Source of the DNA: Bacteroidales bacterium | Lineage (GTDB): Bacteria > Bacteroidota > Bacteroidia > Bacteroidales > UBA10428 | Reading direction: 5' to 3' | NCBI GenBank assembly: GCA_016929525.1 | Contig: JAFGIP010000097.1 | Location: 1-64,000, forward strand | Length of the DNA stretch: 64,000 nt | In this document: one piece after another, positions 19,832 through 41,243 of the stretch | Position numbering within the stretch: the stretch's first letter is position 1 | How the letters are laid out: each line of letters begins with the position of its first letter | Notes under the pieces: generated by a model | Seen by the model: the letters and a program-made list of their open reading frames with translations, nothing else | The model's database searches: none | What the model was told of the DNA's origin: nothing | Program-made: the position numbers and the translations under genes

Positions 19832-19840
19832 TATTTCTGC

Positions 19841-21720: not shown

Positions 21721-24597
21721 ATGAATAAATTGAAGATCAGTATTTCCATAATTGTTACAATCATTATAACATCATACTTTTCGTATAATATATGTGCCGG
21801 CGATGTGGTTGGTAAAGTTACGGTTGGATACCAGGGTTGGTTTGCATGTCCCGACGACGGATCACCGATAGATATGTGGTGGCACTGGTCAACAAGCTGG
21901 TCACAACCGCCATCACCAAGCACCAATGGTATGATATCGTGGCCGGAAGTAAGCGGTTATACCACAACTTTTCAGACTAACTTTTCAAACCTTGGGAATG
22001 GCCAACCGGCAACAGTTTTTTCATCTTACACAGACCAGACAATTAACACACATTTCTTATGGATGGCACAGAACGAGATCGACTGTGCTGCACTGCAGCG
22101 ATTTAGTCCTTATGGAATCGAAGGTCCCACTCGTGATGATATGGCTGAGAAAGTAAAGGATGCAGCCGAAACCAATGGCGTTAAATTCTATATTATGTAT
22201 GATGTGACCGGGTGGACAAATATGCAGTCGGAAATTAAAGAAGACTGGACCAATAAGATGAGTGCCTACACTTCTTCTACTGCATATGCATATGAAGACG
22301 GGAAACCGGTTGTTGTTATATGGGGATTTGGATTTAGCGATCCAAATCGTCCTTGGGATGCGGAAACCTGCCTTGACGTGATAGCATGGTTTAAGGGTCA
22401 GGGTTGTTATGTCGGAGGTGGTGTCCCTACTCACTGGAGAACTGAAACAAGTGATTCCAGACCGGACTTTTTAGAAGTTTATCATGCATTTGATATGATC
22501 TCTCCATGGATGGTAGGAAGAATAGGTAATATCAGCGGATCGGACTGGTTCTATGAGAATATTAACCTTCCTGATCAGGCGGATTGTGATGCTCATGGAA
22601 TAGACTATCAGCCTTGTGTTCTGCCCGGCGATTTACAGCAAGAACACAGGGACAATGGTGATTTCATGTGGCGACAGTTTTATAATATGATCAGTGTTGG
22701 CTGTCAGGGAATATACATATCGATGTTCGATGAATATAATGAAGCGAACCAGATACTGAATACATCAGACAGTTATTTAAGCAATCCGACAAACTCGGAT
22801 TTTAAAACTACAAGCTCCGAAGGTGTGTATGTTTCTTCTGATTTCTACATGCGTTTGACCGGAGAAGGCGGAAGAATGCTTAAAGGAATAATTACTTTGG
22901 CCGATACCCATTCAATTCCATTACAGTCGGCACCTATGTGGTACCGATCAAGCTTTGAACCAGGTTTCGATGCGTTACCCGCCTGGACAAGTACAATTGA
23001 TGATGAAGAAACTATTACAAATGTAAGCTCGCCGGTTTGTGAACTGAGCGAAGATAAATTTTATGTAGGGACAACTGCTATTGAAATAAGTGGAGACGAC
23101 AATTCTTCAACGGGAGGGTCATCTGCTTATTTCAAAGTAATTGATGTTGATATTCTGGTAAGCTCAAATACAAATCTGACATATCTGTTCTACCCGCTTA
23201 ACGATTTGGGAAGATATATCTCTGTTGATCTCATCATGGAAGATGCTACCAATCTTCGGGATTCAGATGCAGAAGATCATAACAGCGTTTCTATGCACCC
23301 GTCTGCAGGAAGGGGGACTGTTGGAACCTGGAATAAAGTAAGCTGCAATATCGGGTCGTGGTTGGAAGGCAAAACGATTGACAGAATACTGATTTGTTAT
23401 GATCATGAACCGGAGACAGGAACATTTACGGCTTATATCGATAATGTTATTGTCTACGACGGTGATATGGATACAGAAGCCCTTTTACCGGCATTTCCAT
23501 ATGATCCCGTTCCTTATAATGAACAGGTCTTTACCAATTCAGCTCCTGAACAGCTGGCATGGAGTGCCGATGATCTCTCTCAGACTTTTACAATTTATCT
23601 GGACGATGATATTGTACTCACTGATGATGACCTTATTAACACGCAGACAGATACTTTTTATATATTACCACGTCTGAAAGGAAATGAAACTTACTACTGG
23701 CGCGTTGATCAGACAACCCCCGACGGAACAACCATGGGACCCGTATGGTCTTTTGTCACCCCCGATCCATATACAGATCCGGTTAATCCGTCTCCTGCTC
23801 ATTTATCTGCCGATGTCGATACCAACGTAACATTTGCCTGGCAGGCAGAAATTATCGACCAGACATTTAATATATACCTGGGCACAGAAGCAGTATTAAC
23901 ATTTACCGATTTACTCAGCTCACAAACTGATACGTTTATATATTATCCGTTGTTAAACACGAATAAAACATACTACTGGAGAGTTGACCAGACCAGTGCT
24001 TACGGGACTACAACAGGGCCGGTCTGGAGATTCTCAACCAGGAATAAACCTCTGCAGGCAAGGTATCCGCGACCGATAGACGGATCACTCAACAGGGATA
24101 TTAACCTTGAGTTATCATGGCAGATTGGATCTTATGTCGACAGTCAGAATTTATATCTGGGTACATCTGATAATCTGGATGCCGAAGATCTGATTGGTAG
24201 TCCTGCCGATGGTTCTTATGAACTTACAGATTTGGAATACAGTACAACTTATTACTGGCGTGTTGATGGTATTAATGATGTTGGCACAACCAAAGGTGAG
24301 GTTTGGAACTTTACAACAAAGGATGACCCCGATGGAATACATACGGCTGAAGAAGGAATTCTGATTACGGAAGTGTACCCAAATCCGGTTACTGATGGAG
24401 TTTTCTATATCGATTTTCAGGATACATTCAACGGGAATATAAGATTGTCGGATATTCACGGAAAATTACTGATGTCTGAAGAAGTTGCCGGAAAGTCGAT
24501 CATTGAAATTTCAGTAGCTGATATTCCACCGGGATTATATTTTATTTCCATTTTTGATAAAGAATATATTTTGGTCAGAAAGATATTCATTGAATAA
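21721..24597 (+). CDS. GH71/GH99-like enzyme with fn3 repeats and T9SS sorting domain
   Basis: This 958-aa relative of the protein at 3375 is exported by T9SS. The N-terminal 390 residues match the GH71/99-like fold: VTVGYQGWFACPDDGSP at the start, and MFDEYNEANQI with the probable catalytic pair E338/E341. A middle beta-rich domain (about 395-590) looks like a carbohydrate-binding module of unknown class. Three fn3-like repeats follow, each with a YYWRVD motif, and the sorting domain begins YPNPVTDG. Keeping one periplasmic and one surface copy of the same enzyme type suggests stepwise attack on one polymer (inference). A role on alpha-mannan or another alpha-linked glycan is suggested only by the GH99 relationship. 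Confidence 0.74.
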   Translation: MNKLKISISIIVTIIITSYFSYNICAGDVVGKVTVGYQGWFACPDDGSPIDMWWHWSTSWSQPPSPSTNGMISWPEVSGYTTTFQTNFSNLGNGQPATVFSSYTDQTINTHFLWMAQNEIDCAALQRFSPYGIEGPTRDDMAEKVKDAAETNGVKFYIMYDVTGWTNMQSEIKEDWTNKMSAYTSSTAYAYEDGKPVVVIWGFGFSDPNRPWDAETCLDVIAWFKGQGCYVGGGVPTHWRTETSDSRPDFLEVYHAFDMISPWMVGRIGNISGSDWFYENINLPDQADCDAHGIDYQPCVLPGDLQQEHRDNGDFMWRQFYNMISVGCQGIYISMFDEYNEANQILNTSDSYLSNPTNSDFKTTSSEGVYVSSDFYMRLTGEGGRMLKGIITLADTHSIPLQSAPMWYRSSFEPGFDALPAWTSTIDDEETITNVSSPVCELSEDKFYVGTTAIEISGDDNSSTGGSSAYFKVIDVDILVSSNTNLTYLFYPLNDLGRYISVDLIMEDATNLRDSDAEDHNSVSMHPSAGRGTVGTWNKVSCNIGSWLEGKTIDRILICYDHEPETGTFTAYIDNVIVYDGDMDTEALLPAFPYDPVPYNEQVFTNSAPEQLAWSADDLSQTFTIYLDDDIVLTDDDLINTQTDTFYILPRLKGNETYYWRVDQTTPDGTTMGPVWSFVTPDPYTDPVNPSPAHLSADVDTNVTFAWQAEIIDQTFNIYLGTEAVLTFTDLLSSQTDTFIYYPLLNTNKTYYWRVDQTSAYGTTTGPVWRFSTRNKPLQARYPRPIDGSLNRDINLELSWQIGSYVDSQNLYLGTSDNLDAEDLIGSPADGSYELTDLEYSTTYYWRVDGINDVGTTKGEVWNFTTKDDPDGIHTAEEGILITEVYPNPVTDGVFYIDFQDTFNGNIRLSDIHGKLLMSEEVAGKSIIEISVADIPPGLYFISIFDKEYILVRKIFIE

Positions 24598-24924: not shown

Positions 24925-24982
24925 TTTTAATTTTCTATTAAGCATTTTTTAATTAATTATTAATTGGCAGGCCATTAATTTG
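24925..24982 (+). promoter_or_regulatory. Phased TTAA array D and -7 element of the beta-helix gene
   Basis: TTAA occurs at 24927, 24938, 24949 and 24960 (all 11 bp). Eleven bases after the last unit comes TTAATTTG (24975-24982), a good -7 match. The start codon is at 25026. The geometry equals arrays A, B and C. Confidence 0.6.
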
Positions 24983-25025: not shown

Positions 25026-26840
25026 ATGAAAAAACTAATACTCTTATTTGTGGCGTTTGTGCCAATCTGTTTATTCTCCCAGGTAAGAATCGGAGGAACA
25101 GAATATGAATCTTTACAAGCAGCGTGTGATGCAGCAGTTGAAGACGACGTTGTTACTATAGAAGGTGAAATAACACTTACTGGTGTTTACGGTATTTCAA
25201 AAAGCATTACAGTAAGAGGTATATCCTCCGATGCAAAAATTGTATTTGGTTCGGAAGGTGATAACCGTCTGGGTTTTGGTGGTGACACAGAAATCATTGT
25301 TGAAAATCTTACAATTGTTGGTTATCCAAGAAGTCAGAGACAGATGTGGGTATCAGACAACTGTCACGTAATATTCAAGAATGACACCATAAGGGATTGT
25401 CACAATACCGGTCCTAACGATGAGCATGGAGGAGCATTCCTGAATGTAGGAACAAGTACCTTTGAAGCACATAACTGTGTTTTTAAAAATAATAAAAGTA
25501 GTAAGAATGGAGGTGTTTTCTGGGCTGTTGACCAATGCAGTGTATTATTGTACGATTGCCTCTTCACAGGAAATATAGCTCAGTATGAAAATGAGGACGG
25601 GAAAGGCGGTGTACTTGCCAGTGTTGGAGAAGGCCATACCTACTATGCTGAAAACTGTGCATTTATTGAAAATGGAAGTGAAGGTCATGGCGGAGTAATC
25701 TGGATTGAACATAATCAGTCAATGACCTGCGTAAACTGCACATTTTCCGGTAACTGGGCCGGTGGTCATGGCGGAGCTATTGGTTTCTGGGAAAATGCAT
25801 CTATTGATCTGATCAATTGTACAGTATACCAGAACAGTGTATTATATGAAGGTGGTGGTGGTGCTGTATTCCTGAACTGGGGCAGCAATACCGTAAATAT
25901 GCAGAATACAGTACTTACTGGTAACGGATACGATGACGGTGAAGGTACAAGCGGAGCAAGTAATATTGAAGGTGAAGCCGAAAATGCTCCCTTCACAGTT
26001 ACTGCAGACAATAGCTACTATACGCTGACAGAGGATGGTACCATTGTAACAGAAGGTAGTAATTCACTGAATACAGGAGCAATATTACTGGAAGATGTCG
26101 ATCTTGAAAGCGGGATCTATTGGAATAAGATCGCTCTTGAAACAAGTGTTTTGGTAGGATTAGGCGATCCTGTTTACCTTGAACCTTACAGTTCAACTGA
26201 CCAGCGAGGCTGGGACAGGGATATGGAATCAGCCATCTGTGCAGGTGCATACGATATAGATGCTGAAGCCTATGATTCAGTAGTCGTTAAAATGCAGATC
26301 CCCGATCAGGAGATGGATGAAATCGATGAATTAAATGTTTCCTATGCAGGTGTGATGGAAGTATATCTTATTCCTCCTTCTGATATAATGGGTGAGGTTG
26401 AATATGAAGTTGAATCTTCCGACGAAGATCTGCTTACTGTTGACCTTGATACCGATACAGAAGAAATTATCCTTTCGAAGGAGACCGAAGAGGTAACAAT
26501 TGCAACAGTTACACTTAGAGGTTATAGTCCTAAAGTAGCATATAATGAAATAACATTCGATGTTTACCTGAATCAGTCTTTAGTATCGATCTCTAATGTC
26601 AGGATCAAAGAAATAGATCTGTATCCTAATCCTGCAGCCGACTATATCTTATTCCCGGATTTATTTGAATCAGATTTAAATATATCTGTATTCAATGTGA
26701 CAGGAGAGGTTGTATTAAATGCTGAACTTCAAAATTCAGCAAACAGACTCGATGTATCTTCACTGACATCAGGTTTATATTTTATAAAAATTACCGATGA
26801 AAGCGGAGCAGTATATTCACAGCGCTTTATAAAAGAATAA
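25026..26840 (+). CDS. Secreted right-handed beta-helix protein with T9SS sorting domain
   Basis: This 604-aa exported protein of unknown role has a signal peptide (1-19, ending LFSQ). Residues 25 to about 330 carry parallel beta-helix repeats with phrases such as GGAFLNVGTSTFEAHNCVF and GGAIGFWENASIDLINCTV, like chlamydial Pmp and pectate-lyase-like proteins. About 420-520 is a beta-sandwich-like region and the end is a T9SS domain (YPNPAAD). No lyase catalytic residues can be assigned. It lies behind array D and directly before the SusC operon, so it is probably part of the same response. It could be a polysaccharide lyase, a glycan-binding adhesin or a scaffold. Confidence 0.7.
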   Translation: MKKLILLFVAFVPICLFSQVRIGGTEYESLQAACDAAVEDDVVTIEGEITLTGVYGISKSITVRGISSDAKIVFGSEGDNRLGFGGDTEIIVENLTIVGYPRSQRQMWVSDNCHVIFKNDTIRDCHNTGPNDEHGGAFLNVGTSTFEAHNCVFKNNKSSKNGGVFWAVDQCSVLLYDCLFTGNIAQYENEDGKGGVLASVGEGHTYYAENCAFIENGSEGHGGVIWIEHNQSMTCVNCTFSGNWAGGHGGAIGFWENASIDLINCTVYQNSVLYEGGGGAVFLNWGSNTVNMQNTVLTGNGYDDGEGTSGASNIEGEAENAPFTVTADNSYYTLTEDGTIVTEGSNSLNTGAILLEDVDLESGIYWNKIALETSVLVGLGDPVYLEPYSSTDQRGWDRDMESAICAGAYDIDAEAYDSVVVKMQIPDQEMDEIDELNVSYAGVMEVYLIPPSDIMGEVEYEVESSDEDLLTVDLDTDTEEIILSKETEEVTIATVTLRGYSPKVAYNEITFDVYLNQSLVSISNVRIKEIDLYPNPAADYILFPDLFESDLNISVFNVTGEVVLNAELQNSANRLDVSSLTSGLYFIKITDESGAVYSQRFIKE

Positions 26841-26857
26841 TTGGAACTCATAAATTG

Positions 26858-26891
26858 ATTGTTCCGGAAGTATAAGCACTTCCGGGACAAT
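26858..26891. terminator. 14-bp hairpin after the beta-helix gene
   Basis: ATTGTTCCGGAAGT (26858-26871) pairs with ACTTCCGGGACAAT (26878-26891) over 14 bp with one G-U pair and a six-base loop. There is no clear U tract, so it may be an RNA-stabilising hairpin or a weak terminator between the beta-helix gene and susC. Confidence 0.55.
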
Positions 26892-27025
26892 CTCAGGTTT
26901 ATATTAAAAAACAGCTGGTAAAATTCACACTTGACCGGCTATATTAAAAAAAGTAATATCTGTGAATGATTTGTGCAGAAAGAATACTGAAACTTAAAAC
27001 CTGATCAGAATACTACTATTACCTT

Positions 27026-27062
27026 GTTTAATCATGTTTTTAATACTTACAACTGAATATTG
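27026..27062 (+). promoter_or_regulatory. Possible degenerate TTAA site of the SusC operon
   Basis: Only two TTAA units are found (27028 and 27040, 12 bp apart), with ATTG ending 19 bp after the second, the same distance as in the four full arrays. The leader to the SusC start would be about 110 bases. The match is weak and could be chance in AT-rich DNA. Nothing else distinctive is seen in 26892-27176. Confidence 0.25.
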
Positions 27063-27176
27063 GAACCTAAAACCAGATATACTCCGGTAGACCCTTTGCA
27101 TATACATCAGGTAAAGAATTCCGGACCTGGAAATTAATATTTCCTGACAATAATAACTAACCCAAAATACCTGTAT

Positions 27177-30100
27177 ATGAATAGAATATTAACCTTCCTC
27201 CTTTTGGTATTTTTATGTATCACGGGAGCATTTGCACAACAACAAATTACAGGAAATGTAAAAGATGAGGATAACAACCCGTTGCCTGGGGCAAATGTGT
27301 TTAATAAAACCACCAAAGAAGGGGTAATAACCGATGTGGGTGGTAATTTCACAATTCAGGCCGGTCCCGCCGACTCAATCATGATCTCATTTGTAGGCTA
27401 CTTAACAGAAGATGTTACACCGGGGAATGAGACTTATATAGATATCAATCTTATTCCCAATATAACTTCACTGGATGAGGTAGTTGTAACTGCTCTGGGT
27501 ATTTCCAGGGAAGTAAAATCGATTGGATTCGCCCAGCAATCGGTATCAGCCCAGGAACTGACCGAAGCAAGAGACCCTAATATTACCACAGCACTTGCCG
27601 GTAAGGTTTCCGGTTTACAGGTAATTTCCAACGGTGGCCCGACTTCTTCTGCCACAATAGTTATCAGGGGAATGGCATCGCTGAGTAACAGGAACGATCC
27701 AATCTGGGTAATCGATGGTGTACCTATTATCAACAATTCCGGCCAACAGGCTGATGATCGTGAAATTGACTATGGTAATGATGCTGCCGACTTAAACCCG
27801 GATATGATAGAAAGCATTGAAGTACTTAAAGGACCAAATGCAGCTGCACTGTATGGATCGATTGCCCAGAATGGTGCGATATTGATTACTACTAAAAAAG
27901 GAACATCACAAAACAGGCTTGGAGTTACTTTGAGCTCAAATATTATGTTTCACCAGGTAAGGGAGTACCCCGATTATCAAAATGTTTATGGTGCCGGGCA
28001 CGTACTGCAGATAGGCAGGGAAGAAACACAAAGGGATGATTCAACAGGATACCCTATTGTTGGAAGTTATATGCGTTCATGGGGAGCGCCGATGCTTGGG
28101 CAAAACGTCGTTAACTACAATGGCGAACTGACAACTTACGATCCTGAACCGGATAACGTAAAAGACTTTTACCAGACAGGGAAAGTGTATACAAATACAA
28201 TAACTCTCGACAGAGCCTACGAAAAAGGTTCCTTCCGCTTTACTTATACAAACGTTTCAGGAACAGATATCGTACCTGATCATAACGTGCAAAAGTCTCA
28301 TAATGTAAACCTGAGAGCAGTTAAGGAATTTAGCACATTCCTGAATGTTAACGCGGGTGTGATCTGGATGGATGAAAAAGTTAAAAACAGAATGTATAGG
28401 AACTGGAACCCCAGGAATCCCATGAATACATTTATTTATATGCACAGGAACAATTCCCTGGAAGATCTTGATCCCTGGAAGGGCGAAGACGGAAGGGCAA
28501 TTAATCAGTTTGAAGGGGACCAGTACGATAATCCTTTATGGCTTTTAAATGAGATATGGAATGAAGATTCCAAAAACAGGTTTATAGGTGATATAACCCT
28601 ATACGGTGAAATACTGAAAAATTTTTCTTACAGGATAAGATTTAACCAGGATTATATTCAAAGGGAAGGATGTGATTTTAATAACTGGGGCGCCGATTAT
28701 GACGATGACGGTTCATATAGCAACTTTATTTCAACGAATTCTCAAAGGAACTACGAAGGTATCTTAACGTACAGTTCTGATATCAACGATGTTCTGACAT
28801 ATAGCGTCAACTTAGGTTTAAATCAGAGAGAAAGTGACGGTTTAAGAAGATGGGCCTCAATTTCATCTTTAATTATGCCGGATGAAGCAAGTATATACAA
28901 TTCTCTTGATGATCCTCAAACAGGAGAAAGCCGGTGGAGTAAAGTGACACAGTCGGTATTTGGGTTTATTAACCTGGGCTTTAAAGATTTAATATTTCTG
29001 GATCTGACTGCCCGCAACGACTGGTCATCAACACTGCCCGATGATAACAACAGCTATTTTTATCCTTCGGTGAGTACGAGTATTGTTTACAGCGATATAT
29101 TTAATATAAGGGAAAACATTTTGCCATTTGGTAAACTGAGGTTTTCATGGGCTAAGGTAGGAAACGATACAGATCCATATCAAACTCAAAATGCTTACGA
29201 ATACGGAGGTATGTATAATGAAAATCCATGGATGTTTCTGAACCGGGTAAGAAGAAATGAAGAATTAAAACCTGAAGAAACAACATCTTTCGAAATCGGT
29301 TTGGACAACAGGTTTTTTAATAACAGATTATCATTCGATATTACTTTATATAAACAGTATACGGTAAATCAGATCGTATCGATTAAAGTACCGGCACCGT
29401 CGGGATATTCCGATAAAGTTGTCAATGTGGGACGGATCGATAACAAAGGAATTGAACTAAGCTTTGGAGTAAAACCCATTGATAGAAAAAACTTTGATTG
29501 GGAGATTTTGCTTAACTGGTCAAAGAATGATAATGAAGTCGTAGAACTGGATTCTACGGGAGCTCCGTTCTGGTTGAATTCTATGATTGGGGTTAATATT
29601 TTTGCCGAGGTTGGTAGACCTTATGGTGTATTGAGAGGTACAACACAACTCCATACATCGGATGGCAGACCTTTAATCGATCCTAATAGCCTGGAACCAA
29701 TTTATATTGACGATGGTTATCTTGGAAATGCTTTCCCCGAATGGATCGGTTCGGTCAGAAATTCATTCAGATATAAAAACTTTGATTTAGGAATCTTAAT
29801 AGATTTTCAAAAAGGAGGAACATTATACTCTGTTGGAAACCACAAAGCACAGGTATGGGGTAATACAACAAGGTCCTTGGAAGGACGTGAAGAATGGAGG
29901 TTTAGTGCATGGATCCTTGGTGAAAGTGATGATGAAAGAAGGGGAATCGGAATTGACGGATCAGAATATAACGATAGCGACAGGAGCAAAGGTATCTGGG
30001 TTGAAGGCTGGTTTCCGCTGCTTGATGAAGAAGGAAATTATGTATATGACGAGAATGGAAACATAGTAGCCGATGAATGGGGCGGAGGTTACGTACTCCC

Positions 30101-30398
30101 GCAAAACTGGTGGCAGCTGGCCGATAAGCACATGATCCAGAATACATTCGACAGATCGTTTGTAAAACTCAGGGAGGTGACACTCGGGTATACAGTACCA
30201 TACTCCAAACTGAAGAACTTACCGTTTGAAAGGATCAGAGTTGCTGCTGTTGGCAGAAATCTATGGACCATATTTAAAAATACTCCGAATGGTATCGATC
30301 CGGAATCTACCTCAACAGTTGGTAACGGTCAGGGAGTAGAATTTGGATCAGTGCTTCCGACAGCATATTATGGTTTCGATGTAAAAATTTCATTTTAA
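27177..30398 (+). CDS. SusC-like TonB-dependent outer membrane transporter
   Basis: This 1073-aa outer membrane transporter imports oligosaccharides with its SusD partner using TonB/proton-motive energy. The signal peptide ends AFAQ (about residue 21). A carboxypeptidase-regulatory-like N-terminal domain (22-105) is followed by the TonB-box region SLDEVVVTALGI. A plug domain comes next (IRGMASLSNRNDPIWVIDGVPI, with EVLKGPNAAALYGS), then a long beta-barrel that ends in an aromatic residue (FDVKISF). Length is normal for SusC. It is 12 bp from the SusD gene, forming an operon. Here the class-typical ALGI replaces VGYG in the box. Substrate cannot be read from the sequence. Confidence 0.95.
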   Translation: MNRILTFLLLVFLCITGAFAQQQITGNVKDEDNNPLPGANVFNKTTKEGVITDVGGNFTIQAGPADSIMISFVGYLTEDVTPGNETYIDINLIPNITSLDEVVVTALGISREVKSIGFAQQSVSAQELTEARDPNITTALAGKVSGLQVISNGGPTSSATIVIRGMASLSNRNDPIWVIDGVPIINNSGQQADDREIDYGNDAADLNPDMIESIEVLKGPNAAALYGSIAQNGAILITTKKGTSQNRLGVTLSSNIMFHQVREYPDYQNVYGAGHVLQIGREETQRDDSTGYPIVGSYMRSWGAPMLGQNVVNYNGELTTYDPEPDNVKDFYQTGKVYTNTITLDRAYEKGSFRFTYTNVSGTDIVPDHNVQKSHNVNLRAVKEFSTFLNVNAGVIWMDEKVKNRMYRNWNPRNPMNTFIYMHRNNSLEDLDPWKGEDGRAINQFEGDQYDNPLWLLNEIWNEDSKNRFIGDITLYGEILKNFSYRIRFNQDYIQREGCDFNNWGADYDDDGSYSNFISTNSQRNYEGILTYSSDINDVLTYSVNLGLNQRESDGLRRWASISSLIMPDEASIYNSLDDPQTGESRWSKVTQSVFGFINLGFKDLIFLDLTARNDWSSTLPDDNNSYFYPSVSTSIVYSDIFNIRENILPFGKLRFSWAKVGNDTDPYQTQNAYEYGGMYNENPWMFLNRVRRNEELKPEETTSFEIGLDNRFFNNRLSFDITLYKQYTVNQIVSIKVPAPSGYSDKVVNVGRIDNKGIELSFGVKPIDRKNFDWEILLNWSKNDNEVVELDSTGAPFWLNSMIGVNIFAEVGRPYGVLRGTTQLHTSDGRPLIDPNSLEPIYIDDGYLGNAFPEWIGSVRNSFRYKNFDLGILIDFQKGGTLYSVGNHKAQVWGNTTRSLEGREEWRFSAWILGESDDERRGIGIDGSEYNDSDRSKGIWVEGWFPLLDEEGNYVYDENGNIVADEWGGGYVLPQNWWQLADKHMIQNTFDRSFVKLREVTLGYTVPYSKLKNLPFERIRVAAVGRNLWTIFKNTPNGIDPESTSTVGNGQGVEFGSVLPTAYYGFDVKISF

Positions 30399-30410
30399 AG
30401 ACTGACTATC

Positions 30411-32177
30411 ATGAAAAAAATAATTCCGATAATATTATTCTTATTTATCATTTCGTGTGAAAGGGATTTCAAGGAAATTAATACCAATCCTGATACCTTT
30501 TCGTCACTCGAACCGGAATATATCTTTGGTGGTGTAGTACTCAGGACCATAGATCTCATTGCAGATATGAACAAGAGGGTCTTCTGGAGCTATTCGCACT
30601 ATCTGTCTATTGAGGGTGGGCCTTTTCCAAGGTATTCTGCTACACCGGTTTCTATGAATGGCTGGTGGGACAGGTTTTATATCGATATACTTTCAAATCT
30701 TAACCAGATTAAAGTAATGTATGGAGAAGATCCGGATTATGCCAACAGAATTCAAATCGTTAATATATGGCAGTCATACATATATTCCATTATGGTATCT
30801 ATGTGGGGGCCGGTGCCATATTTTGAAACCTTTGATCAATCGAGCAGGAGCTATAGCTACGATTCCGAGCCGGACATCTATACGGATATATTAAGTACCC
30901 TGAAAACTGCCTCGGAATTACTGGATGAGGAAGGTGATGTATTTACACCTGATGTTATATTTGGAGATGATGAAATTCAGGGCTGGAAGAAATTTGCAAA
31001 TACTTTAAGATTAAAACTCGCTCTTCGTATTTCTGATGTTAATCCGACACTGGCCGGGCAGCACATAACCGAGTTAATGGCGAATGAAGAAATGCTGGTA
31101 TCCGGTGAAGATGAAGATGTTAGAGCATATTGGGGAACATCTGTTCTGGATTATTCTCCGTATTATGAGGAATATATCTTTAATGCAGCTTCTCCGGGTG
31201 TTTATCCGTATCTAAGTCATTTTCTGTTTCTCTATTTGAGATCGTACGGTGATCCTCGAACCGAGACATTTGCAAATCCCTCGTTATTGCCCTATGTAGT
31301 TGCAGATACCATCTGGGTAATGGACCTGATACCTGAACCCGATCCGAATGATACTGTTGCATACCTTATTAACTATCCGATACCATACTATGGGAGGCCA
31401 AAAACCGGAAGAGTGCCGGATGTATGGCATATTGAAGATCCCCTTCCATTACCGCCGTCAGATTATTCATATTCAGATGTGCATTCACAGTTTCTTGTTG
31501 CCGATTATTACCATTCAATAATTTCTCATGTAGATGTTCTCTTTATGAAAGCAGAAGCTGCACTGAAAGGATATGGTGGTTCTCGAACTGCCGAAGAATA
31601 TTATTATGAAGGAATTGAGGCATCATTCACTCAGTACGGCTTCTCAGGTGATTATAACAATTATATCCTGCAGGATGGAATTGCATGGGAAACTTCTGCT
31701 ATCGGCTTTGAAGATTTCCGTGGTATCGTTAACTCTGATATTGATGGTGACCCTTTGAAGCAGATAGCTTTACAAAGATGGATTTCAAATTATTTTCATG
31801 GTGCTCACGATGCATGGTGCTTACAACGAAGATTAAGGTTCTTAGATCTTCCTCCTCACTTTAATCCCGAATCGCCAACAACAACAAATGTTCTTGCTGC
31901 CGATTTACCGGAAAGATTGCCTTATCCTGCTAATGAGGACTATCTTAATCATGATGAGTTCGCTGAAGCAATAGATGTTTATTTCGATGGAGATAACGAT
32001 ATGAATGGCTTACTGTATTTCTCAAAGGAGTATGAACATACGGACTGGCTGAACATAGTACCCAGGATTAATAACGATGTTGTAAGATATATGTATGGTG
32101 AGACTTTTGAAGAACTTGATGCCGCAGGCGTAGAATACGAGATAATTAAAGCCATAAAGTACAGAAGCATAGATTGA
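30411..32177 (+). CDS. SusD-like surface glycan-binding lipoprotein (SusD-like_2 type)
   Basis: This 588-aa partner of the SusC transporter forms the surface lid that captures glycans. The signal ends in a lipobox (IISC) and the mature start has the EINTNPDTFSS wording typical of the SusD-like_2 subgroup (SusD/RagB superfamily). TPR-like helices and the late segment IALQRWISNYFHGAHDAWCLQRR agree with the family. The spacing of 12 bp from SusC and 28 bp to the GH99-like lipoprotein indicates one operon. No truncation is seen. Confidence 0.93.
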   Translation: MKKIIPIILFLFIISCERDFKEINTNPDTFSSLEPEYIFGGVVLRTIDLIADMNKRVFWSYSHYLSIEGGPFPRYSATPVSMNGWWDRFYIDILSNLNQIKVMYGEDPDYANRIQIVNIWQSYIYSIMVSMWGPVPYFETFDQSSRSYSYDSEPDIYTDILSTLKTASELLDEEGDVFTPDVIFGDDEIQGWKKFANTLRLKLALRISDVNPTLAGQHITELMANEEMLVSGEDEDVRAYWGTSVLDYSPYYEEYIFNAASPGVYPYLSHFLFLYLRSYGDPRTETFANPSLLPYVVADTIWVMDLIPEPDPNDTVAYLINYPIPYYGRPKTGRVPDVWHIEDPLPLPPSDYSYSDVHSQFLVADYYHSIISHVDVLFMKAEAALKGYGGSRTAEEYYYEGIEASFTQYGFSGDYNNYILQDGIAWETSAIGFEDFRGIVNSDIDGDPLKQIALQRWISNYFHGAHDAWCLQRRLRFLDLPPHFNPESPTTTNVLAADLPERLPYPANEDYLNHDEFAEAIDVYFDGDNDMNGLLYFSKEYEHTDWLNIVPRINNDVVRYMYGETFEELDAAGVEYEIIKAIKYRSID

Positions 32178-32205
32178 TTTATTATACCAATTAAAATTTA
32201 AATTT

Positions 32206-33318
32206 ATGAGGACCATAAAACAACTATATTATTTATTACTACTTACAGCATTAATTCTTGTTTCATCCTGTAAAGATGATGAAATGACCCCGTGGGATAC
32301 CATGATCGCTTTTGAGATTGAAGATGTTCCTGTAACGGAAGATTACCTTGTAGGTGCAGTGTATTACAATGTTAACGACTGGAGTGCATTTAACTATGAG
32401 GAACCCCAGATGGGAACTTATGGGGCAGGTCAGCCGGTATCCGATACTGCTGCTATGCAGCAGCATGTAGAATGGGGTGCAGAATATGGCTTAGATTTCT
32501 TTCTGTTCGATTTTTCACCGGGTTATAACGAAGATATTGAGGTTGTACATACCGATTCGGGAACGTACGCAGATATATTCACGGGTTTACCCAATGCAGG
32601 TTCAATGAATTTTGCACTAAAATTTCATCTGGGGTATATGGGATTGAATGTAAATAACAGGATGTATGTAAACGATAGCATTTTTGATATGTTTGTAGAG
32701 GGCTTCAAATTCATGATCCCATATTTCGAAAATGAGAATTACCAGATGGTTGATGGTCGTTATCTGGTTTATTTAAGTGGTGCCGCTGATTTATACTCCG
32801 ACAGCACGCTCGGTAACTCACCGGTTTATGATGAATTGAGAGCGCAACTACTTGACGAAGGAATTGAAGTATACATTGTAGGAGAGCAGGGACGATGGAC
32901 ACCTCCCGCACGTTATGAATTGAGAATGAGAGACTGTGTTGACGCAGTCACACACAGAGAGATGATCCTTACAACAGAGTATGAGGGATCAATATATTTT
33001 CACCAGTGGGTGTATCTGAACTGGGAATATTCGAGCGAATACTTTGCAGGATGGGGGACGGAGTTTGTCCCTCAAATCTCTCCGGCATTTACCGACCGGG
33101 TAGAGAATCCGAGTTCAGGGGCATACGAGTTTGACGGCGGCGATGAGGATTTTTTCAGGGATTTCTGTGATGTAGCAAAAGCGAATTGCCATAACTCGGG
33201 CAGACTGATAATTATTGATTCATTCAATAACTGGGTAAAGAATACACAGATAGAACCGTCGGTTGGCTTTGGAACCATGTGCCTGGAAGTTGTAAATAAT
33301 GAATTTAAAGTAAACTAA
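32206..33318 (+). CDS. GH99-like lipoprotein lacking both catalytic glutamates
   Basis: This 370-aa lipoprotein (lipobox LVSSC) is related to GH99/WbsX-like proteins: GAVYYNVNDWSAF at the N-terminus and the IDSFNNWVKNTQIEPS block near the end. In active GH99 enzymes the block reads FNEWHEGTQIEP, with two catalytic glutamates three residues apart. Here those positions are N342 and K345, while the flanking FN, W, TQIEP are kept. The two other relatives in this window keep both glutamates. Loss of catalysis with retention of the fold suggests a binding protein. It lies directly after SusD, where surface glycan-binding proteins are usually encoded. Family membership is fairly sure; the binding role is inference. 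Confidence 0.74.
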   Translation: MRTIKQLYYLLLLTALILVSSCKDDEMTPWDTMIAFEIEDVPVTEDYLVGAVYYNVNDWSAFNYEEPQMGTYGAGQPVSDTAAMQQHVEWGAEYGLDFFLFDFSPGYNEDIEVVHTDSGTYADIFTGLPNAGSMNFALKFHLGYMGLNVNNRMYVNDSIFDMFVEGFKFMIPYFENENYQMVDGRYLVYLSGAADLYSDSTLGNSPVYDELRAQLLDEGIEVYIVGEQGRWTPPARYELRMRDCVDAVTHREMILTTEYEGSIYFHQWVYLNWEYSSEYFAGWGTEFVPQISPAFTDRVENPSSGAYEFDGGDEDFFRDFCDVAKANCHNSGRLIIIDSFNNWVKNTQIEPSVGFGTMCLEVVNNEFKVN

Positions 33319-33774: not shown

Positions 33775-36360
33775 CTATTCAATAATCTCATTGAAATTTT
33801 TTAGGTAGTCTTCGTCATAAAGGGTTCTGTACTCATTGCAGAATTTGGTGAAAGCATTTTTTGCCAGGCTGTGTTTACCCAGTTTCGCCAATACCCGGCA
33901 CTTGATGATCATCGATTCCTCGTTAAGTGTATCAAAAATGAGTATTACATCGGCAATGTGGATCAGAAAGTTGGGTTCTACCTTATTAATATTCTTCTCA
34001 GCAAACTGAAGCAATGTATCGATGATCATATTGGAGACATCCGATTTGTAATCGTCAAGCCATTCATAATCGAGATTTAACAGCAACGCACCATTCTTCA
34101 CGATATTAAGAAGTTTAAAGATTTGAGCAGGTGAAAGCTGCTTATTATTTACAATCTGGTGATAATCATAGAAATCGATGCACACATCTTTTGAGTTGAT
34201 CTCAATCTTCCAGTAACCGGTTTCTTTAGAAACTTCAATATCACCGATCTTCTTTAAGATCACCTTCAGCCTTGCTATATTCACTGCCCTGTTGTTCCTG
34301 GCATCTTTATCCGATTTATCGAACCACAGTATCTCTTTTAATTTCTGCGATGATATACCACGTTTACCTGGCAATGAATTAAGTAAAATGAGTAAGAACA
34401 GCTCTTTGATTAACGGGGTAAAATGCGAGGTTATATCGCTGCCATATTTATCAATAGCCTGGAATCCTCCAAATAAGGTAATACAGCTTTTTTGATCTCT
34501 AATCTCCTCCGGAAACTGAGAAATATCAAGAGATTCAATTCCAGAATCGACTATACTTTCACTTGCGGGTACAGTTTTTAATTCCGGTTTTTCAACCTTT
34601 CTTCCAAAAGCATGTATCAATTTCTTTCTGAAAACCAAAAGTGCAAACAGTAACAATACAACTAACCCTGCAATTACTCTGTTGCGTAACTTTATGTTTT
34701 GCGGTTTACTGGCAATACTCAGATCCTTTCCGGGTGCCGGCGGAAACATCAGGGAATAGATCTTTATTTCGGTAGGTTCATATGTTTCAGTCTGAAAACG
34801 TGTAGTAGCAATCAATTCCTGGTTGTTCTCTGAGAAGAATATATCTGCATACGATACGATATCATGAAAAGTAAAAGGAAGCGGGGTTGCAAGAATTTCT
34901 ATATCGGGTCTTAATAATGAACCTCTTACGAGGTTAAGTTTTCCGTCGTAAATATATTTCGAAAAGGTAAGTCCGTAAAATATATCATTTATTTCATCGA
35001 TAATAAGAGAATTTGCAAAGCAAAAGTCTTCAGGTTGCTGTGTTTCAAATTGGTAAACTCTTTCAAAAGTCCCTGCTCCCGGGCTGTACCTGATCAATTC
35101 ATACCAGTATCCCGGATTTAATTTCTGATCGCCGGTTTCACTGCCGTATCCGCCGATTATATATACGGTATCAGAAGCTGCATTCTTACCCATGCCAAAC
35201 AGATAGCGTGGTGTGAAAACATCTGAAGTGTTAGTCTGTATTAACTTCCAGTTAAACGTATCCAGATCAACCTTATATACTTCATTTTTATAAGTCAGTT
35301 GTCCGTATCCTCCAAGAATGTAAACTGAATTATCGACTGGTGAATAAAAGTTAATGTTATGGTAGTACTCCGTTCCAACCGGAATATCTTCAGGGAATGA
35401 TGTACTCCAGGTCCTGGTTTGATCATCGAATACCGATACACTTGTCAGATCGACAGAATAACAGAGAAGACGATCATTGAGCGTATCGCAGAATAATTCC
35501 ATGCCCGACTGAATATTAATTCTGTTGTTAAACCCGATTTTTTGCGTTACTGAAGCATTATCTATTGAATAGATAACCAGCGAATCAGGGCTGACGATAT
35601 ATATTTCTTCTGTTTCAGGATTAAAGGTTAACTGAGCATATCCGTTCAGGGTAATGGTTTCTTCAAGTTTCCAGTTTTGGTGCATCTGATAGAGCCAGAA
35701 CGGATTGACAACCTCTGCTTTCTGATGATTGATCCTGTCTGTTGCGATTTCACCTTCCATCTGATTTAATGTCCAGTGGTATTTCAGCTTTTCATTTTCA
35801 AAGATCTTGATGTTTTTAATATCCATATTTGGAAGATCGGTCGACTGTATCGTCCTGTAATTGTTCAGCCCGAAAAATATTTTTAACTGGTCTTTTTTAT
35901 TGAATGGCAGATTGTTTTTTATGTATACCGAATCTTCCAGCTGCAGTGAGATGGATTTTTCCCCTGTGTTTACTTCCAATGAAATTTCTTTCCAGCTGAA
36001 GAAATAGTCTTTATCAACCCTGATTGAAAATAATGGTCCAAGTTCTCCCATTATCAGGTTTATGGTGTTTATTGTATCAAACTTATTTTCGTAGATCAGA
36101 TCAATATTGGTCTCGTCATTAACGATGATCCTGAAGACGTATCCAAAATAGCTGTTATAGTTTTTAACGAACGAGAGGTCAAAGGAGAGTTTAAATTTCT
36201 GATTCAACTCAAGCTTCTTGTCCGGCAGCAGTTCTAATCCTGTTCTCTTATTAATTTCGTATTCCTGGCCGTAAAACCTCAGACCATAACTCTGTATATC
36301 AGCTATAAGGTTTTGGTGAACAAGTATTCCAATAATCAGAGATATAAATATCTGTCTCAT
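33775..36360 (-). CDS. Transmembrane Kelch-sensor regulator with SARP-like DNA-binding domain
   Basis: This 861-aa one-component regulator candidate has a signal peptide (1-20) and a LamG/concanavalin-like beta-sandwich (about 25-215). A Kelch-type propeller follows (about 220-545), with phrases VYILGGYGQ and VYIIGGYGSE. One membrane helix (about 558-579) ends in a basic anchor. In the cytoplasm lies a winged helix (about 625-720) in SARP style: an FGGFQAIDKYG strand, a KLKEILWFDKS helix start, NNRAVNIARLKVILKK recognition-helix wording and a GYWKI wing. A helical BTAD-like domain runs from about 725 to 855. The gene is divergent from the GH92 operon. I infer that it senses a glycan outside and activates PUL promoters with phased TTAA arrays. 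No histidine kinase or AraC domain is present, unlike the usual hybrid two-component PUL sensors. Domain reading is good; function is inferred. Confidence 0.72.
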   Translation of the reverse strand: MRQIFISLIIGILVHQNLIADIQSYGLRFYGQEYEINKRTGLELLPDKKLELNQKFKLSFDLSFVKNYNSYFGYVFRIIVNDETNIDLIYENKFDTINTINLIMGELGPLFSIRVDKDYFFSWKEISLEVNTGEKSISLQLEDSVYIKNNLPFNKKDQLKIFFGLNNYRTIQSTDLPNMDIKNIKIFENEKLKYHWTLNQMEGEIATDRINHQKAEVVNPFWLYQMHQNWKLEETITLNGYAQLTFNPETEEIYIVSPDSLVIYSIDNASVTQKIGFNNRINIQSGMELFCDTLNDRLLCYSVDLTSVSVFDDQTRTWSTSFPEDIPVGTEYYHNINFYSPVDNSVYILGGYGQLTYKNEVYKVDLDTFNWKLIQTNTSDVFTPRYLFGMGKNAASDTVYIIGGYGSETGDQKLNPGYWYELIRYSPGAGTFERVYQFETQQPEDFCFANSLIIDEINDIFYGLTFSKYIYDGKLNLVRGSLLRPDIEILATPLPFTFHDIVSYADIFFSENNQELIATTRFQTETYEPTEIKIYSLMFPPAPGKDLSIASKPQNIKLRNRVIAGLVVLLLFALLVFRKKLIHAFGRKVEKPELKTVPASESIVDSGIESLDISQFPEEIRDQKSCITLFGGFQAIDKYGSDITSHFTPLIKELFLLILLNSLPGKRGISSQKLKEILWFDKSDKDARNNRAVNIARLKVILKKIGDIEVSKETGYWKIEINSKDVCIDFYDYHQIVNNKQLSPAQIFKLLNIVKNGALLLNLDYEWLDDYKSDVSNMIIDTLLQFAEKNINKVEPNFLIHIADVILIFDTLNEESMIIKCRVLAKLGKHSLAKNAFTKFCNEYRTLYDEDYLKNFNEIIE

Positions 36361-36694: not shown

Positions 36695-36753
36695 TTTTAA
36701 GCACTTCATTAATCAATTATTAATCATTTTTTAAGTACGCACCAGTTTATTTG
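36695..36753 (+). promoter_or_regulatory. Phased TTAA array B and -7 element of the GH92 operon
   Basis: TTAA occurs at 36697, 36709, 36720 and 36731 (spacings 12, 11, 11). Eleven bases later lies TTTATTTG (36746-36753), a good -7 match. GH92 starts at 36800. The array lies in the region shared with the divergent SARP-like regulator gene, the commonest place for a regulator's target. Confidence 0.62.
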
Positions 36754-36799: not shown

Positions 36800-39076
36800 A
36801 TGGCATTGAGAATATGTTTAGGATTACTCTTAACAGGAGTTTTTACAATCGGATGCAATACTGAGAGCAAGTCGGAAGATGTACTGAAATATGTAGATCC
36901 TTTCATTGGCACCGACTATCATGGACATACATACCCCGGTGTGACCATACCATTCGGAATGGTACAGTTAAGTCCTGATACACGTGTATCAGGATGGGAT
37001 GCATGCTCAGGTTATCATTATTCCGATAAATCAATACTTGGGTTTAGTCATACCCACCTTAGCGGAACAGGAATTGGCGATTACGGAGATGTACTGATCA
37101 TGCCTTATACGGGCCCGGTTTCTGTAAAACAGGGATCTGAAAAGAATCCTGATACGGGATATCGTTCACGGTTTAGTAAAATTACTGAAGAAGCATCCCC
37201 CGGATATTATTCGGTTTTATTAAGCGATTATAATATTAAAGCAGAGCTTTCTGCTACAACTCATGCAGGTATTCACAGGTATACATATCCCGCAAGCGAG
37301 AATTCCGGGGTAATCATTGACCTGACACATACGATTCATGAGCATAAGAACATTGATAATGTTCTCAGGGTTTTGAATGAATATGAGATAGAAGGGTTAA
37401 AACATACTCAGGGTTGGGCATATAAGCACTATGCATATTTCAGGATCCGGTTTTCAAAACCTGTGAAAGTTGAACTTTATCAAAATGATAAAAAAGTAAA
37501 GGATGTATCTGAAATTATAGGTAGTAATGTCAAGGCAAAAGTAAGCTTTAGTACTGCTGCAGATGAACAGGTCCTGATAAAAGTGGGAATCAGTGGCGTT
37601 GACTTTGCCGGTGCGGAAAAGAACCTGAATGCAGAGCTTGATCATAATGATTTTGAAAGTGTAGTTGCCGATGCAAAAAGCGCCTGGGAGGAACAGCTTC
37701 AAAAAATAAAGATAACAGACTTATCCGAGGAAAATAAAAGGACTTTTTATACTGCACTTTACAGGGTGAGCCTTAGTCCGCATATTTATTCCGATGTCGA
37801 CGGAAGGTATCGTGGCATGAACCAGGAAATACTTCATTCGGAAGAAAACAATTACACGGTATTTTCTCTTTGGGATACATATCGTGCCACGCATCCGCTT
37901 TTTACAATTATAGAACCTGAGTTCGATCAAAAGCTTATCAGGGCACTACTGAGAAAATACGATGAAGGTGGAATACTGCCAATGTGGGAATTGGCTTCTA
38001 ATTATACCGGAACGATGATAGGTTCGCATTCCATACCGGTAATAGTAGATGCATATATGAAAGGTCTCCACGATTTTGATGCGGATAAGGCACTTGAAGC
38101 CATGATACATGCTGTTTCTTATGATACTGTAAAGGAAATAAGTTATCAGAATAAAGAGGCCCATGTGAACCTGATGCCGAAATCAAAAATGCTGATTGAG
38201 AAGTATGGATTTGTCCCATGCGACCTTGAGAATGCTTCTGTATCGCAGGGACTTGAATTTGCATATAATTTCTGGTGCATTGCTACCATGGCAAAATCAC
38301 TTGGGAAAAATGATATCGCAGAAGAGTATTATAAAAAAGCGCAAAGCTATAAGTTCTATTTCGATAAAGAAACGGGATTTATGCGTGGAAAAAATCTTGA
38401 TGGAAGCTGGAAGAATCCCTTCGATCCCCGTTATTCAGATCACTGGAAGACTCCATACGTAGAAGGCAATGCCTGGCAGTGGTCGTGGTATGTGCCTCAC
38501 GATGTAAGTGGCCTTATGGATCTTCATGGAGGACCGGAAATGTTTGCAGTAAAACTCGATTCACTTTTTATGGTTGATTCCGAAGTACTTGGTGAAGGGA
38601 AATCACTTGATATTACCGGACTGATCGGACAGTATGCCCATGGAAATGAACCCAGCCATCATATTGCATATCTGTTTAATTACGCCGGTAAACCATGGAG
38701 GACCCAGGAACTGGTGACCAGGATATGTAACGAACAATATTCCGATAAGCCGGACGGACTATGTGGAAACGAAGACTGTGGCCAGATGTCGGCATGGTAT
38801 ATACTCAATTCACTGGGTTTTTACCCGGTATGCCCCGGCGATACAAAATATTCACTGGGTATTCCGGCATTTGATAAAGCTGAGATTAAAGTGGGAGAGG
38901 ATAAAACATTTACAGTAATCAGCAAAGACCGGTCTGAACAGAATAAATATGTGAAAAGGGTTCTTCTTGATGGCAAACCGATAAAGTCGCAGTTTATAGA
39001 TCATAGCGACATCATTGCAGGTAAAACACTGACATTTGAGTTTGGTCCGGACCAAGTGGTTTTCTGGGAACAATAA
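36800..39076 (+). CDS. GH92 alpha-mannosidase lipoprotein
   Basis: This 758-aa calcium-dependent exo-alpha-mannosidase belongs to family 92, common in yeast mannan and N-glycan loci. The N-terminal domain opens with VDPFIGTDYHGHTYPGV and GMVQLSPDT. The catalytic domain shows GNAWQWSWYVPHD and the hallmark GNEDCGQMSAWYILNSLGFYPV. The lipobox is TIGC, so it is membrane-anchored. It is the first gene of an operon with a ROK kinase (74 bp) and an MFS transporter, which would take up and phosphorylate the released hexose. It lies behind array B. Linkage preference (1,2, 1,3, 1,6) cannot be told from sequence. Confidence 0.92.
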   Translation: MALRICLGLLLTGVFTIGCNTESKSEDVLKYVDPFIGTDYHGHTYPGVTIPFGMVQLSPDTRVSGWDACSGYHYSDKSILGFSHTHLSGTGIGDYGDVLIMPYTGPVSVKQGSEKNPDTGYRSRFSKITEEASPGYYSVLLSDYNIKAELSATTHAGIHRYTYPASENSGVIIDLTHTIHEHKNIDNVLRVLNEYEIEGLKHTQGWAYKHYAYFRIRFSKPVKVELYQNDKKVKDVSEIIGSNVKAKVSFSTAADEQVLIKVGISGVDFAGAEKNLNAELDHNDFESVVADAKSAWEEQLQKIKITDLSEENKRTFYTALYRVSLSPHIYSDVDGRYRGMNQEILHSEENNYTVFSLWDTYRATHPLFTIIEPEFDQKLIRALLRKYDEGGILPMWELASNYTGTMIGSHSIPVIVDAYMKGLHDFDADKALEAMIHAVSYDTVKEISYQNKEAHVNLMPKSKMLIEKYGFVPCDLENASVSQGLEFAYNFWCIATMAKSLGKNDIAEEYYKKAQSYKFYFDKETGFMRGKNLDGSWKNPFDPRYSDHWKTPYVEGNAWQWSWYVPHDVSGLMDLHGGPEMFAVKLDSLFMVDSEVLGEGKSLDITGLIGQYAHGNEPSHHIAYLFNYAGKPWRTQELVTRICNEQYSDKPDGLCGNEDCGQMSAWYILNSLGFYPVCPGDTKYSLGIPAFDKAEIKVGEDKTFTVISKDRSEQNKYVKRVLLDGKPIKSQFIDHSDIIAGKTLTFEFGPDQVVFWEQ

Positions 39077-39150
39077 AAGGATGATAAAGTATCTGTTTTC
39101 AATTTGAAAAATTTATAATATTAGTAAGTCAAACTCTTTTTAAAATCGAT

Positions 39151-40080
39151 ATGGAACTTGCAATTGGCGTTGACATAGGAGGCAGCCATATTAGTTGTGC
39201 AGCTATTAATCTGGAAAATGAGAGTATTTTGAAAGAAACTCTTGCCGAGGGCGACGTTAATAATAAAGCTTCTGCAGATGAAATTCTGGAAGTCTGGTCC
39301 TCTGTTCTTAACAAAACGATAAATATGGCTGGTCGTGAGAATGTAAAAGGTATTGGTTTTGCTATGCCCGGCCCGTTCGATTATGTAAGGGGTGTTGCTA
39401 TGTTCGAAAGAGTTGAGAAGTACGAAAGTCTCTATGGGGTGAATGTTGCTGAGCATCTTCAGAAAAACTTAAAGTTCAACAATGGTTTACCGGTAAGATT
39501 TATGAACGATGCAACAGCTTTTGCGGTTGGAGAATCATGGATCGGTAAGGGAAGATTTTCGGAACGCATTGTTGCCCTTACATTGGGTACAGGTTTTGGC
39601 AGCGCATTTATCGATAAAGGATTTCCGGTTGTAAACGGCAGTGAAGTTCCTGAAAACGGATGCCTGTGGCATGTTAAATATAAAAACGGAATAGCAGATG
39701 ATTATATCTCAACAAGATGGTTCCTGAAAGAGTATGAGAATAAAACAGGGATCAGGTTAAAAGGAGTAAAAGAACTGGCTAATCTTTTTCCACAGGATGA
39801 AATATCGAAACGATTATTTCAGCGATACGGAGAGAACCTGGGAATTATCCTTACCCCAAGCTTAATATCCTTTCATCCTGAAATGATCGTAATTGGAGGA
39901 AATATAATAGGGGCATATGATCTTTTTGCTCCGGCACTTCAGGAAAAAATTAAAAACGTTGGGCTCAATGTGGAAGTTGCGTTGTCGGAATTAAAAGAAG
40001 ATGCAGCTATGATCGGAGCCGCCAGAATGATCAAAGTAGATTATTGGAATGGAATAAAATCATTATTACAATACATGTAG
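39151..40080 (+). CDS. ROK family sugar kinase without the zinc motif
   Basis: This 309-aa cytoplasmic kinase of the ROK family probably phosphorylates the hexose released by GH92. The ATP-binding GVDIGGSHIS motif and the second phosphate loop LGTGFGSAF are clear, and a catalytic Asp is expected in FMNDATAFAVGE. The CxCGxxGCxE zinc motif of many ROK proteins is not there; the region reads PENGCLWHV. Both ROK kinases and ROK repressors exist, but there is no N-terminal helix-turn-helix here, so it is a kinase. It is 11 bp from the transporter gene, indicating coupling. The sugar (mannose, glucose, fructose) is uncertain. Confidence 0.83.
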   Translation: MELAIGVDIGGSHISCAAINLENESILKETLAEGDVNNKASADEILEVWSSVLNKTINMAGRENVKGIGFAMPGPFDYVRGVAMFERVEKYESLYGVNVAEHLQKNLKFNNGLPVRFMNDATAFAVGESWIGKGRFSERIVALTLGTGFGSAFIDKGFPVVNGSEVPENGCLWHVKYKNGIADDYISTRWFLKEYENKTGIRLKGVKELANLFPQDEISKRLFQRYGENLGIILTPSLISFHPEMIVIGGNIIGAYDLFAPALQEKIKNVGLNVEVALSELKEDAAMIGAARMIKVDYWNGIKSLLQYM

Positions 40081-40091
40081 AAAATAGTATC

Positions 40092-41243
40092 ATGGAAAAA
40101 CAATTCAGATTTAAAATAGGGCTTCCGGTCCTTATGTCCTATATCGTCATGGGATTTGTTGATATTGTCGGAGTCTCAACCGGTTATGTGGAAAAAGATT
40201 TTACCATATCACCGACACTGGCACGCTTAATACCTTCTATGGCATTCCTGTGGTTTTTTTTACTGTCAATTCCTACAGGGATTATGCAGGACAGGTATGG
40301 TAAGAGAAATATTCTTAACCTTGGTATGATAATCACCGGACTGGGAATGGTAGTCCCGTTTGTAAGTTATACATTTCCCGTTATGTTATTTGCTTTTGTA
40401 TTGCTGGGAATAGGGAACACAATAGTACAGGTCTCGGCAAATCCTTTACTGCAGGATGTTGTTCCTGAAGAACGTTTTCCCAGTTTTATGAGTCTGAGCC
40501 AGTTCATTAAAGCTATCGTGTCATTGCTGGGACCAATTATAGCAACCTATATGGCTATCAGGTTTAATAACTGGAAACTTGTATTTGCGGTTTATGCAAT
40601 AACTTCCTTTATTGCAGTTCTGTGGCTTGGCGCAACGAAAATTGAAGAGAACAAGGCAGAGAACAGGGCAAGGGCAACATTCGGATCGTGCTTTAAATTG
40701 TTAGGCAACGGTTATATTTTAATGATGGTGTTGGGAATATTCCTTGTTGTCGGTGCCGATGTAGGAATGAATTCGGGTATACAGGACTATCTTGAGAACC
40801 ATCATGGACTGACGTTGAATGAAGCATCACTGGGAATAAGCATCTACTTCACTGCACTTATGATAAGCCGGTTCCTGGGAGCTGTCCTTTTAAACTGGAT
40901 CAAACCAAATAAATTTCTCCTGCTTACAATACTGGTAACTTTCATCGGACTATTCTTGCTGTTTACAGCATCATCACCGCTTGTCGGTAAAGCAGGTATA
41001 TTCCTGATCGGTTTTGGCTCAGGTAACCTGTTTCCGCTGATATTCTCCATTACAGTAAATAAAATGCCCGATCGTTCCAATGAGATATCAGGACTGATGA
41101 TAATGGCTGTATCGGGCGGAGCGGCAGTACCTCCTGTCATGGGAGCAATAAGTGGAAGCATAGGAGTATTGGCCAGCTTTGGAGCTATTGCAATTTGTAT
41201 GCTTTACTTGTTGATAATTAGTCTGATCAATTTGAAGAAATAA
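40092..41243 (+). CDS. MFS sugar transporter
   Basis: This 383-aa inner-membrane symporter of the major facilitator superfamily has about twelve hydrophobic segments and resembles the FucP/GlcP-type sugar permeases of Bacteroidetes. The loop after helix 2 carries the DRYGKRN motif. I chose the ATG at 40092, placed 11 bp after the kinase stop; a longer frame from 40044 would overlap the kinase and add a hydrophilic tail. Its likely job is uptake of the monosaccharide made by GH92, with phosphorylation by the ROK kinase. It ends the operon. Confidence 0.83.
   Translation: MEKQFRFKIGLPVLMSYIVMGFVDIVGVSTGYVEKDFTISPTLARLIPSMAFLWFFLLSIPTGIMQDRYGKRNILNLGMIITGLGMVVPFVSYTFPVMLFAFVLLGIGNTIVQVSANPLLQDVVPEERFPSFMSLSQFIKAIVSLLGPIIATYMAIRFNNWKLVFAVYAITSFIAVLWLGATKIEENKAENRARATFGSCFKLLGNGYILMMVLGIFLVVGADVGMNSGIQDYLENHHGLTLNEASLGISIYFTALMISRFLGAVLLNWIKPNKFLLLTILVTFIGLFLLFTASSPLVGKAGIFLIGFGSGNLFPLIFSITVNKMPDRSNEISGLMIMAVSGGAAVPPVMGAISGSIGVLASFGAIAICMLYLLIISLINLKK

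Follow-up and report, generated by a model that had tools for sequence, protein, structure and literature searches.

In CadC and ToxR, a winged helix of OmpR type is anchored through a single membrane helix and coupled to a periplasmic sensor. The polysaccharide utilisation loci (PULs) of Bacteroides are known to be controlled by SusR-like regulators, HTCS and ECF sigma systems, and SusR itself has been described as a periplasmic sensor, a membrane span and a cytoplasmic DNA-binding domain (PMC3878776). The SARP activators follow a spacing rule, in which direct repeats stand 11 or 22 bp apart and the last one lies 8 bp from the -10 box (PMC10936776, PMC4393881), and these repeats make up for a poor -35 (PMC10936776).

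Here we examine an 861-aa protein encoded in a window of Bacteroidales DNA, the window being the whole 64-kb stretch that was analysed. By far the most probable explanation of the data is a one-component transmembrane SARP regulator that activates its own PUL via TTAA repeats. Like the SARPs AfsR (Streptomyces coelicolor) and EmbR (Mycobacterium tuberculosis), the protein is predicted to carry a winged helix and a helical BTA domain at full length, and its predicted operator likewise consists of 11-bp direct repeats, the last of them 8-9 bp from the -7/-10 box. Unlike in AfsR and EmbR, the SARP domain is C-terminal and preceded by an extracytoplasmic sensor and a membrane helix, the gene stands beside Bacteroidota glycan loci instead of antibiotic genes, and the repeats are TTAA-centred. 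With SusR (Bacteroides thetaiotaomicron), which was compared by description only, it shares the periplasmic sensor, membrane span and cytoplasmic DNA-binding domain, all predicted here, as well as PUL control; by the same description SusR differs in that its predicted direct repeats are 67 or 77 bp apart, against 11 bp here, and its DNA-binding domain is said to resemble no known one. HTCS of Bacteroides PULs have the periplasmic sensor, cytoplasmic DNA binding and PUL location in common with it, but histidine kinase, receiver and AraC domains are absent from its Pfam matches. Finally, it is similar to CadC and ToxR in having its winged helix anchored by a single membrane helix and joined to a periplasmic sensor, yet in those proteins the winged helix is N-terminal and has no BTAD, while here it is C-terminal and accompanied by a BTAD-like part.

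The regulator gene and its locus

The gene has an ATG start and the length that had been claimed for it, and the following features were assigned to it.

33775..36360, minus: regulator gene, 861 aa, ATG start (open reading frame call; single copy in the source genome)
36301..36360, minus: signal-peptide-like N terminus, aa 1-20 (sequence; model helix 2-15)
35707..36282, minus: beta-sandwich, lectin-like, aa 27-218 (AlphaFold model; putative as to LamG)
34729..35685, minus: Kelch beta-propeller, aa 226-544 (Pfam Kelch matches and AlphaFold model)
34609..34698, minus: membrane helix, aa 555-584, with basic residues on the cytoplasmic side (model and sequence)
34198..34488, minus: OmpR/PhoB-type winged helix of the SARP domain, aa 625-721 (model, fold comparison, profile search)
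34246..34311, minus: presumed recognition helix, aa 684-705, including DARNNRAVNIARLK (model and conservation)
33781..34176, minus: all-helical BTAD/TPR-like part of the SARP domain, aa 729-860 (model, fold comparison, profile search)

A Pfam search of the protein located Kelch motifs at aa 307-435 (best E 1e-9), and in the AlphaFold model (full length, pLDDT 87.5, pTM 0.60) the propeller resembles the Kelch domains of LZTR1 and KLHDC2 (VIA, Z 21.5). The exported LamG/Kelch sensor proposed by the sequence-only reading thus stood as to Kelch and only in part as to LamG, since the N-terminal sandwich is modelled but a family search matched no LamG model to it; a sequence search found no noteworthy relative of the sandwich either. 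The single membrane helix, which had also been proposed, appears in the model and is followed by the basic stretches RKK and GRK. Judging from these stretches and from the N-terminal signal peptide, the sensor would lie outside and the DNA-binding part inside, joined by one membrane span.

Between this helix and the SARP domain the model places a flexible linker (aa 581-614, pLDDT <50), which could permit intramembrane proteolysis on ligand binding to free the SARP domain as a soluble activator. We regard such a release as rather unlikely, given that the same linker equally suits a tethered protein and that no protease gene was identified among the neighbours.

The regulator gene is divergent from the GH92 gene at 36800 on the plus strand, with 439 bp between them, and sits between a Sus-like unit, all of it on the plus strand, and a GH92-ROK-MFS unit on the same strand. 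Its position inside a PUL, as first read from the sequence, is borne out by the SusC, SusD-like and GH99-like genes alongside. A gene annotation scan gave three presumed target units.

3375..24597, plus: GH99-like, GH3, GH43, GH3, GH95, GH31, GH43, Por-secreted protein
25026..33318, plus: Por-secreted protein (25026), SusC (27177-30398), SusD-like (30411-32177), GH99-like (32206)
36800..41243, plus: GH92 (36800-39076), ROK (39151-40080), MFS (40044-41243)

From their families, the GH92 and GH99-like genes presumably point to alpha-mannose-containing glycans, and GH95, GH31 and GH43 to further decorations. In the source genome the regulator and GH92 each occur once, as neighbours; a genome-wide search found no second regulator copy. 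Rfam and tRNA scans of the 64-kb window were empty.

Fold of the cytoplasmic domain

Neither the single protein nor a 9-member profile, searched against Pfam, NCBIfam and the PDB, gave anything useful for the C-terminal domain. A 49-member profile of this domain led to PhoB-type and TPR matches, while the Pfam families Trans_reg_C (PF00486) and BTAD (PF03704) gave only weak, sub-threshold matches in a few relatives and none in the 861-aa protein. The domain was also modelled, for which 57 sequences were used, the relatives being drawn from the genome contigs with whole-genome relatives left out. The C-terminal 255 residues were modelled at pLDDT 93, and aa 625-860 show strands, three helices and a hairpin, then TPR-like helices.

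With this model as query, Foldseek returned only two structures at E<=0.001, AfsR and EmbR, each by its SARP domain. The match to AfsR (8hvr) is full-length, with 232 residues aligned at 4.3 A (VIA, Z 16.1), that to EmbR covers about 230 residues (Z 15.0), and the next-best structure reaches Z 8.2; identity to AfsR and EmbR is 12-14%. The models therefore support a SARP fold of AfsR/EmbR type for the cytoplasmic domain, and both the winged helix with BTAD-like region behind the membrane helix and the assignment to the SARP type, as put forward from the sequence, agree with the structures.

Relatives and their genomic neighbourhood

A single-protein scan of genome contigs found no relatives. 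Profiles were more productive: among 393 genomes of the same order, the C-terminal profile found about 48 relatives, nearly all of ~850 aa, in ~30, with up to six per genome, and a scan of named Bacteroidota genomes gave 244 matches, the best 80 of which belong to Mucilaginibacter, Pedobacter, Dyadobacter, Chitinophaga, Sphingobacterium, Cyclobacterium and others. An even sample of the phylum had a match in 47 of 392 genomes, weak ones counted. The large alignments of relatives were too varied for pattern scans. Chance can hardly account for the layout, given that the same order of parts at ~850 aa recurs in more than 100 relatives. In some members the outer part is short (391-511 aa), and the ectodomain of one branch (L074, L078 and L083) has LamG with no Kelch match, so that, judging from these sequences, the sensor seems exchangeable and the part from membrane helix to SARP domain constant.

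A search for the same fusion next to SusCD genes had been suggested, and across Bacteroidota it is indeed common, often adjoining SusC and GH92 genes. Of 131 family loci, 60 have a GH92 and 55 a SusC no further than four genes from the regulator, and the gene order REG-SusC-SusD-GH99like-GH92 is found repeatedly. Moreover, a GH92 stands no more than 10 kb away from 11 of 27 regulators in 12 genomes, where a uniform null predicts 1.2. The linkage to GH92 is not universal, as one genome with three regulator copies has no GH92.

These neighbourhoods bear on what the sensor detects. The propeller might sense a protein partner rather than free glycan, for example a lipoprotein of SusD-like type or some other protein of the envelope, and the most similar Kelch propellers are indeed protein- or peptide-binding domains. 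This too is possible but not likely, because GH92 and SusC are the commonest partner genes, which links the signal at least to the use of glycans, and because in many family loci no SusC stands within four genes.

A predicted operator

An alignment of divergent Dyadobacter promoters, together with a reading of the 64-kb window, gave the lead, namely ATTAATC repeats 11 bp apart. The predicted operator is TTAA-N7-TTAA-N7-TTAA, with the consensus ATTAATCAATTATTAATaaTTcATTAAG. In a test that is free of any motif, pairs of identical 7-mers were found at period 11 in 25 loci and at other periods in 1-14. TTAA triples at period 11 occur in 66 of 192 regulator-linked promoters, compared to a mean of 0.3 and a maximum of 2 in shuffles and to 0-3 at other periods, and in none of 60 control promoters, which belong to SusC genes of five of the genomes with no regulator nearby.

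The -7 box of Bacteroidota type is TAnnTTTG. In 21 of 33 oriented promoters, close orthologues being included in the 33, TTTG stands 14-16 nt past the last TTAA, the distance being exactly 14 in 17 of them, and these same 33 promoters have no TTTG phasing on the opposite side of the operator. From the last 7-bp repeat to the -7 box the gap is 8-9 bp; the sites predicted from sequence thereby have the SARP geometry, both in the 11-bp direct repeats and in their distance from the box. In the window, the motif search and the sequence gave the following elements.

3251..3287, plus: predicted operator, four repeats, before the GH99-like gene at 3375; -7-like box ends at 3305 (motif search)
19855..19880, plus: predicted operator before the GH43 gene at 19949; -7-like TATTTTTA at 19892-19899 (motif search)
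24927..24963, plus: predicted operator, four repeats, before gene 25026; TTTG ends at 24982 (motif search)
36709..36734, plus: predicted operator before GH92, TTAATCAATTATTAATCATTTTTTAA (motif search)
36746..36753, plus: -7-like box TTTATTTG before GH92 (sequence)

The operator combined with TTTG occurs at three sites in the 4.06 Mb source genome (3262, 24938 and 36709), all of them in this locus, at 44-70 bp upstream of a start codon; a reversed control pattern had no match in the same 4.06 Mb. Of the bare triples, 7 of the 21 in the source genome lie within the 64-kb window, which is 1.6% of the genome, and the site at 19855 before the GH43 gene is one of the seven.

The window's SusC promoter (26841-27176) has no TTAA triple, and SusC may be transcribed from the 25026 promoter or controlled via 24-nt repeats that precede it. 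These direct repeats (26982-27005 and 27055-27078) are 73 bp apart, identical at 20 of 24 positions and end 98 bp before SusC; 0 of 2000 shuffles equalled the pair, and the source genome holds no further copy. As a SusR-like operator the pair was dropped, since relatives have no counterpart. A further TTAA triple with no phased -7 box (24800-24825) lies ~100 bp upstream of the 25026 operator.

Operator specificity

The operator is present in 54 of 82 loci whose regulators have at least 45% identity to the window protein in the DNA-binding domain, and with falling identity in 3/15, 4/19 and, below 30%, 0/8; many loci are orthologous, and counted by clusters at 65% identity it occurs in 25 of 71. 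Among 14 further loci of the phylum sample, it was found at one only, L233, so that the motif is not family-wide. The helix at L233, ASNNRSVNI, is the window-like one among the 14, and although this is one case, a site that tracks the recognition helix is the pattern to be expected if the regulator family reads it. A genome-wide pattern search of 24 further genomes placed no sites beside regulators, and most regulators there have another recognition helix.

The strict pattern also matches some genomes without the regulator, and the operator is hence not exclusive to it. Binding to 11-bp repeats is also a property of response regulators of the OmpR/PhoB type, and it could be argued that another regulator of OmpR type sharing these promoters binds the TTAA repeats, with the 861-aa protein acting elsewhere. 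We find this improbable: the genome's triples cluster in the window, the 60 control SusC promoters have none, the sites follow the recognition-helix sequence of the 861-aa regulator family, and no other regulator was recognised among the scanned genes of the locus.

Some matches of related form were seen away from the family's promoters. TTAAC-type 11-bp repeats with TTTG at G596 C1:235943-235998 and G765 C3:281210-281265 stand apart from regulator copies and may be PhoB-like sites, and three more period-11 TTAA triples at G000 C40:23306-23509, with OmpR-type regulator genes nearby, are perhaps response-regulator sites.

Proposed mechanism

Architecture, fold, conservation, linkage and the operator-like motif were all obtained by computation, and from them we infer binding by the regulator, activation, the ligand and action while membrane-anchored. 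In the mechanism that we propose, the periplasmic sandwich and Kelch propeller would receive the signal, probably an oligosaccharide freed by the locus's own enzymes, and pass it via the one membrane helix to the cytoplasmic SARP-fold domain. This domain would bind direct repeats centred on TTAA, three or four of them at 11-bp intervals just upstream of the -7 box, where the repeats may stand in for the -33 element of the locus promoters. The GH99-like/GH3/GH43/GH95/GH31, Sus-like and GH92 units would be activated in this way. Predicted control of the locus by the regulator, already suspected from the sequence, is well supported by comparison, as the sole regulator lies beside the sole GH92 and operators of SARP geometry precede the GH99-like, GH43, 25026 and GH92 units. 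That the protein is instead a repressor relieved by its ligand is very improbable, for while the predicted site overlaps the expected position of RNA polymerase, its geometry equals that of SARP activators, whose repeats compensate for a poor -35 (PMC10936776).

Position among PUL regulators

The sequence-only reading knew of no described PUL regulator with such a layout. The overall plan of sensor, membrane span and DNA-binding domain is not new, because SusR has been described likewise (PMC3878776). The Kelch/LamG-membrane helix-SARP make-up, on the other hand, seems undescribed as a class; no description of it was found in the open-licence literature, which argues weakly for novelty. We class the protein as a one-component SARP that spans the membrane and belongs to polysaccharide utilisation loci. 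Beyond the single case, we lean slightly towards a phylum-wide and so far undescribed class that would join SusR, HTCS and ECF systems in the control of PULs, consisting of membrane-embedded SARPs with exchangeable sensors (Kelch, LamG or short) that act on their own locus via 11-bp repeats of TTAA type. If this is true, the glycan loci of many environmental Bacteroidota gain a regulator with a readable operator, and their regulons would therefore be predictable from sequence and testable. The SARP, otherwise known mostly as a soluble activator of antibiotic genes, would then end a one-protein path across the membrane, and a SARP held there poses the question of how promoters are reached.

Two arrangements among the relatives may be added. 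The branch with LamG sensors (L074, L078, L083 and L084, LamG being shown for the first three) precedes a similar gene run, which at L083 comprises Gfo/Idh/MocA oxidoreductases and an open reading frame with NapC/NirT cytochrome and FGE-sulfatase parts, not SusCD. Tandem pairs of regulator genes occur at L103, L238, L245 and L246.
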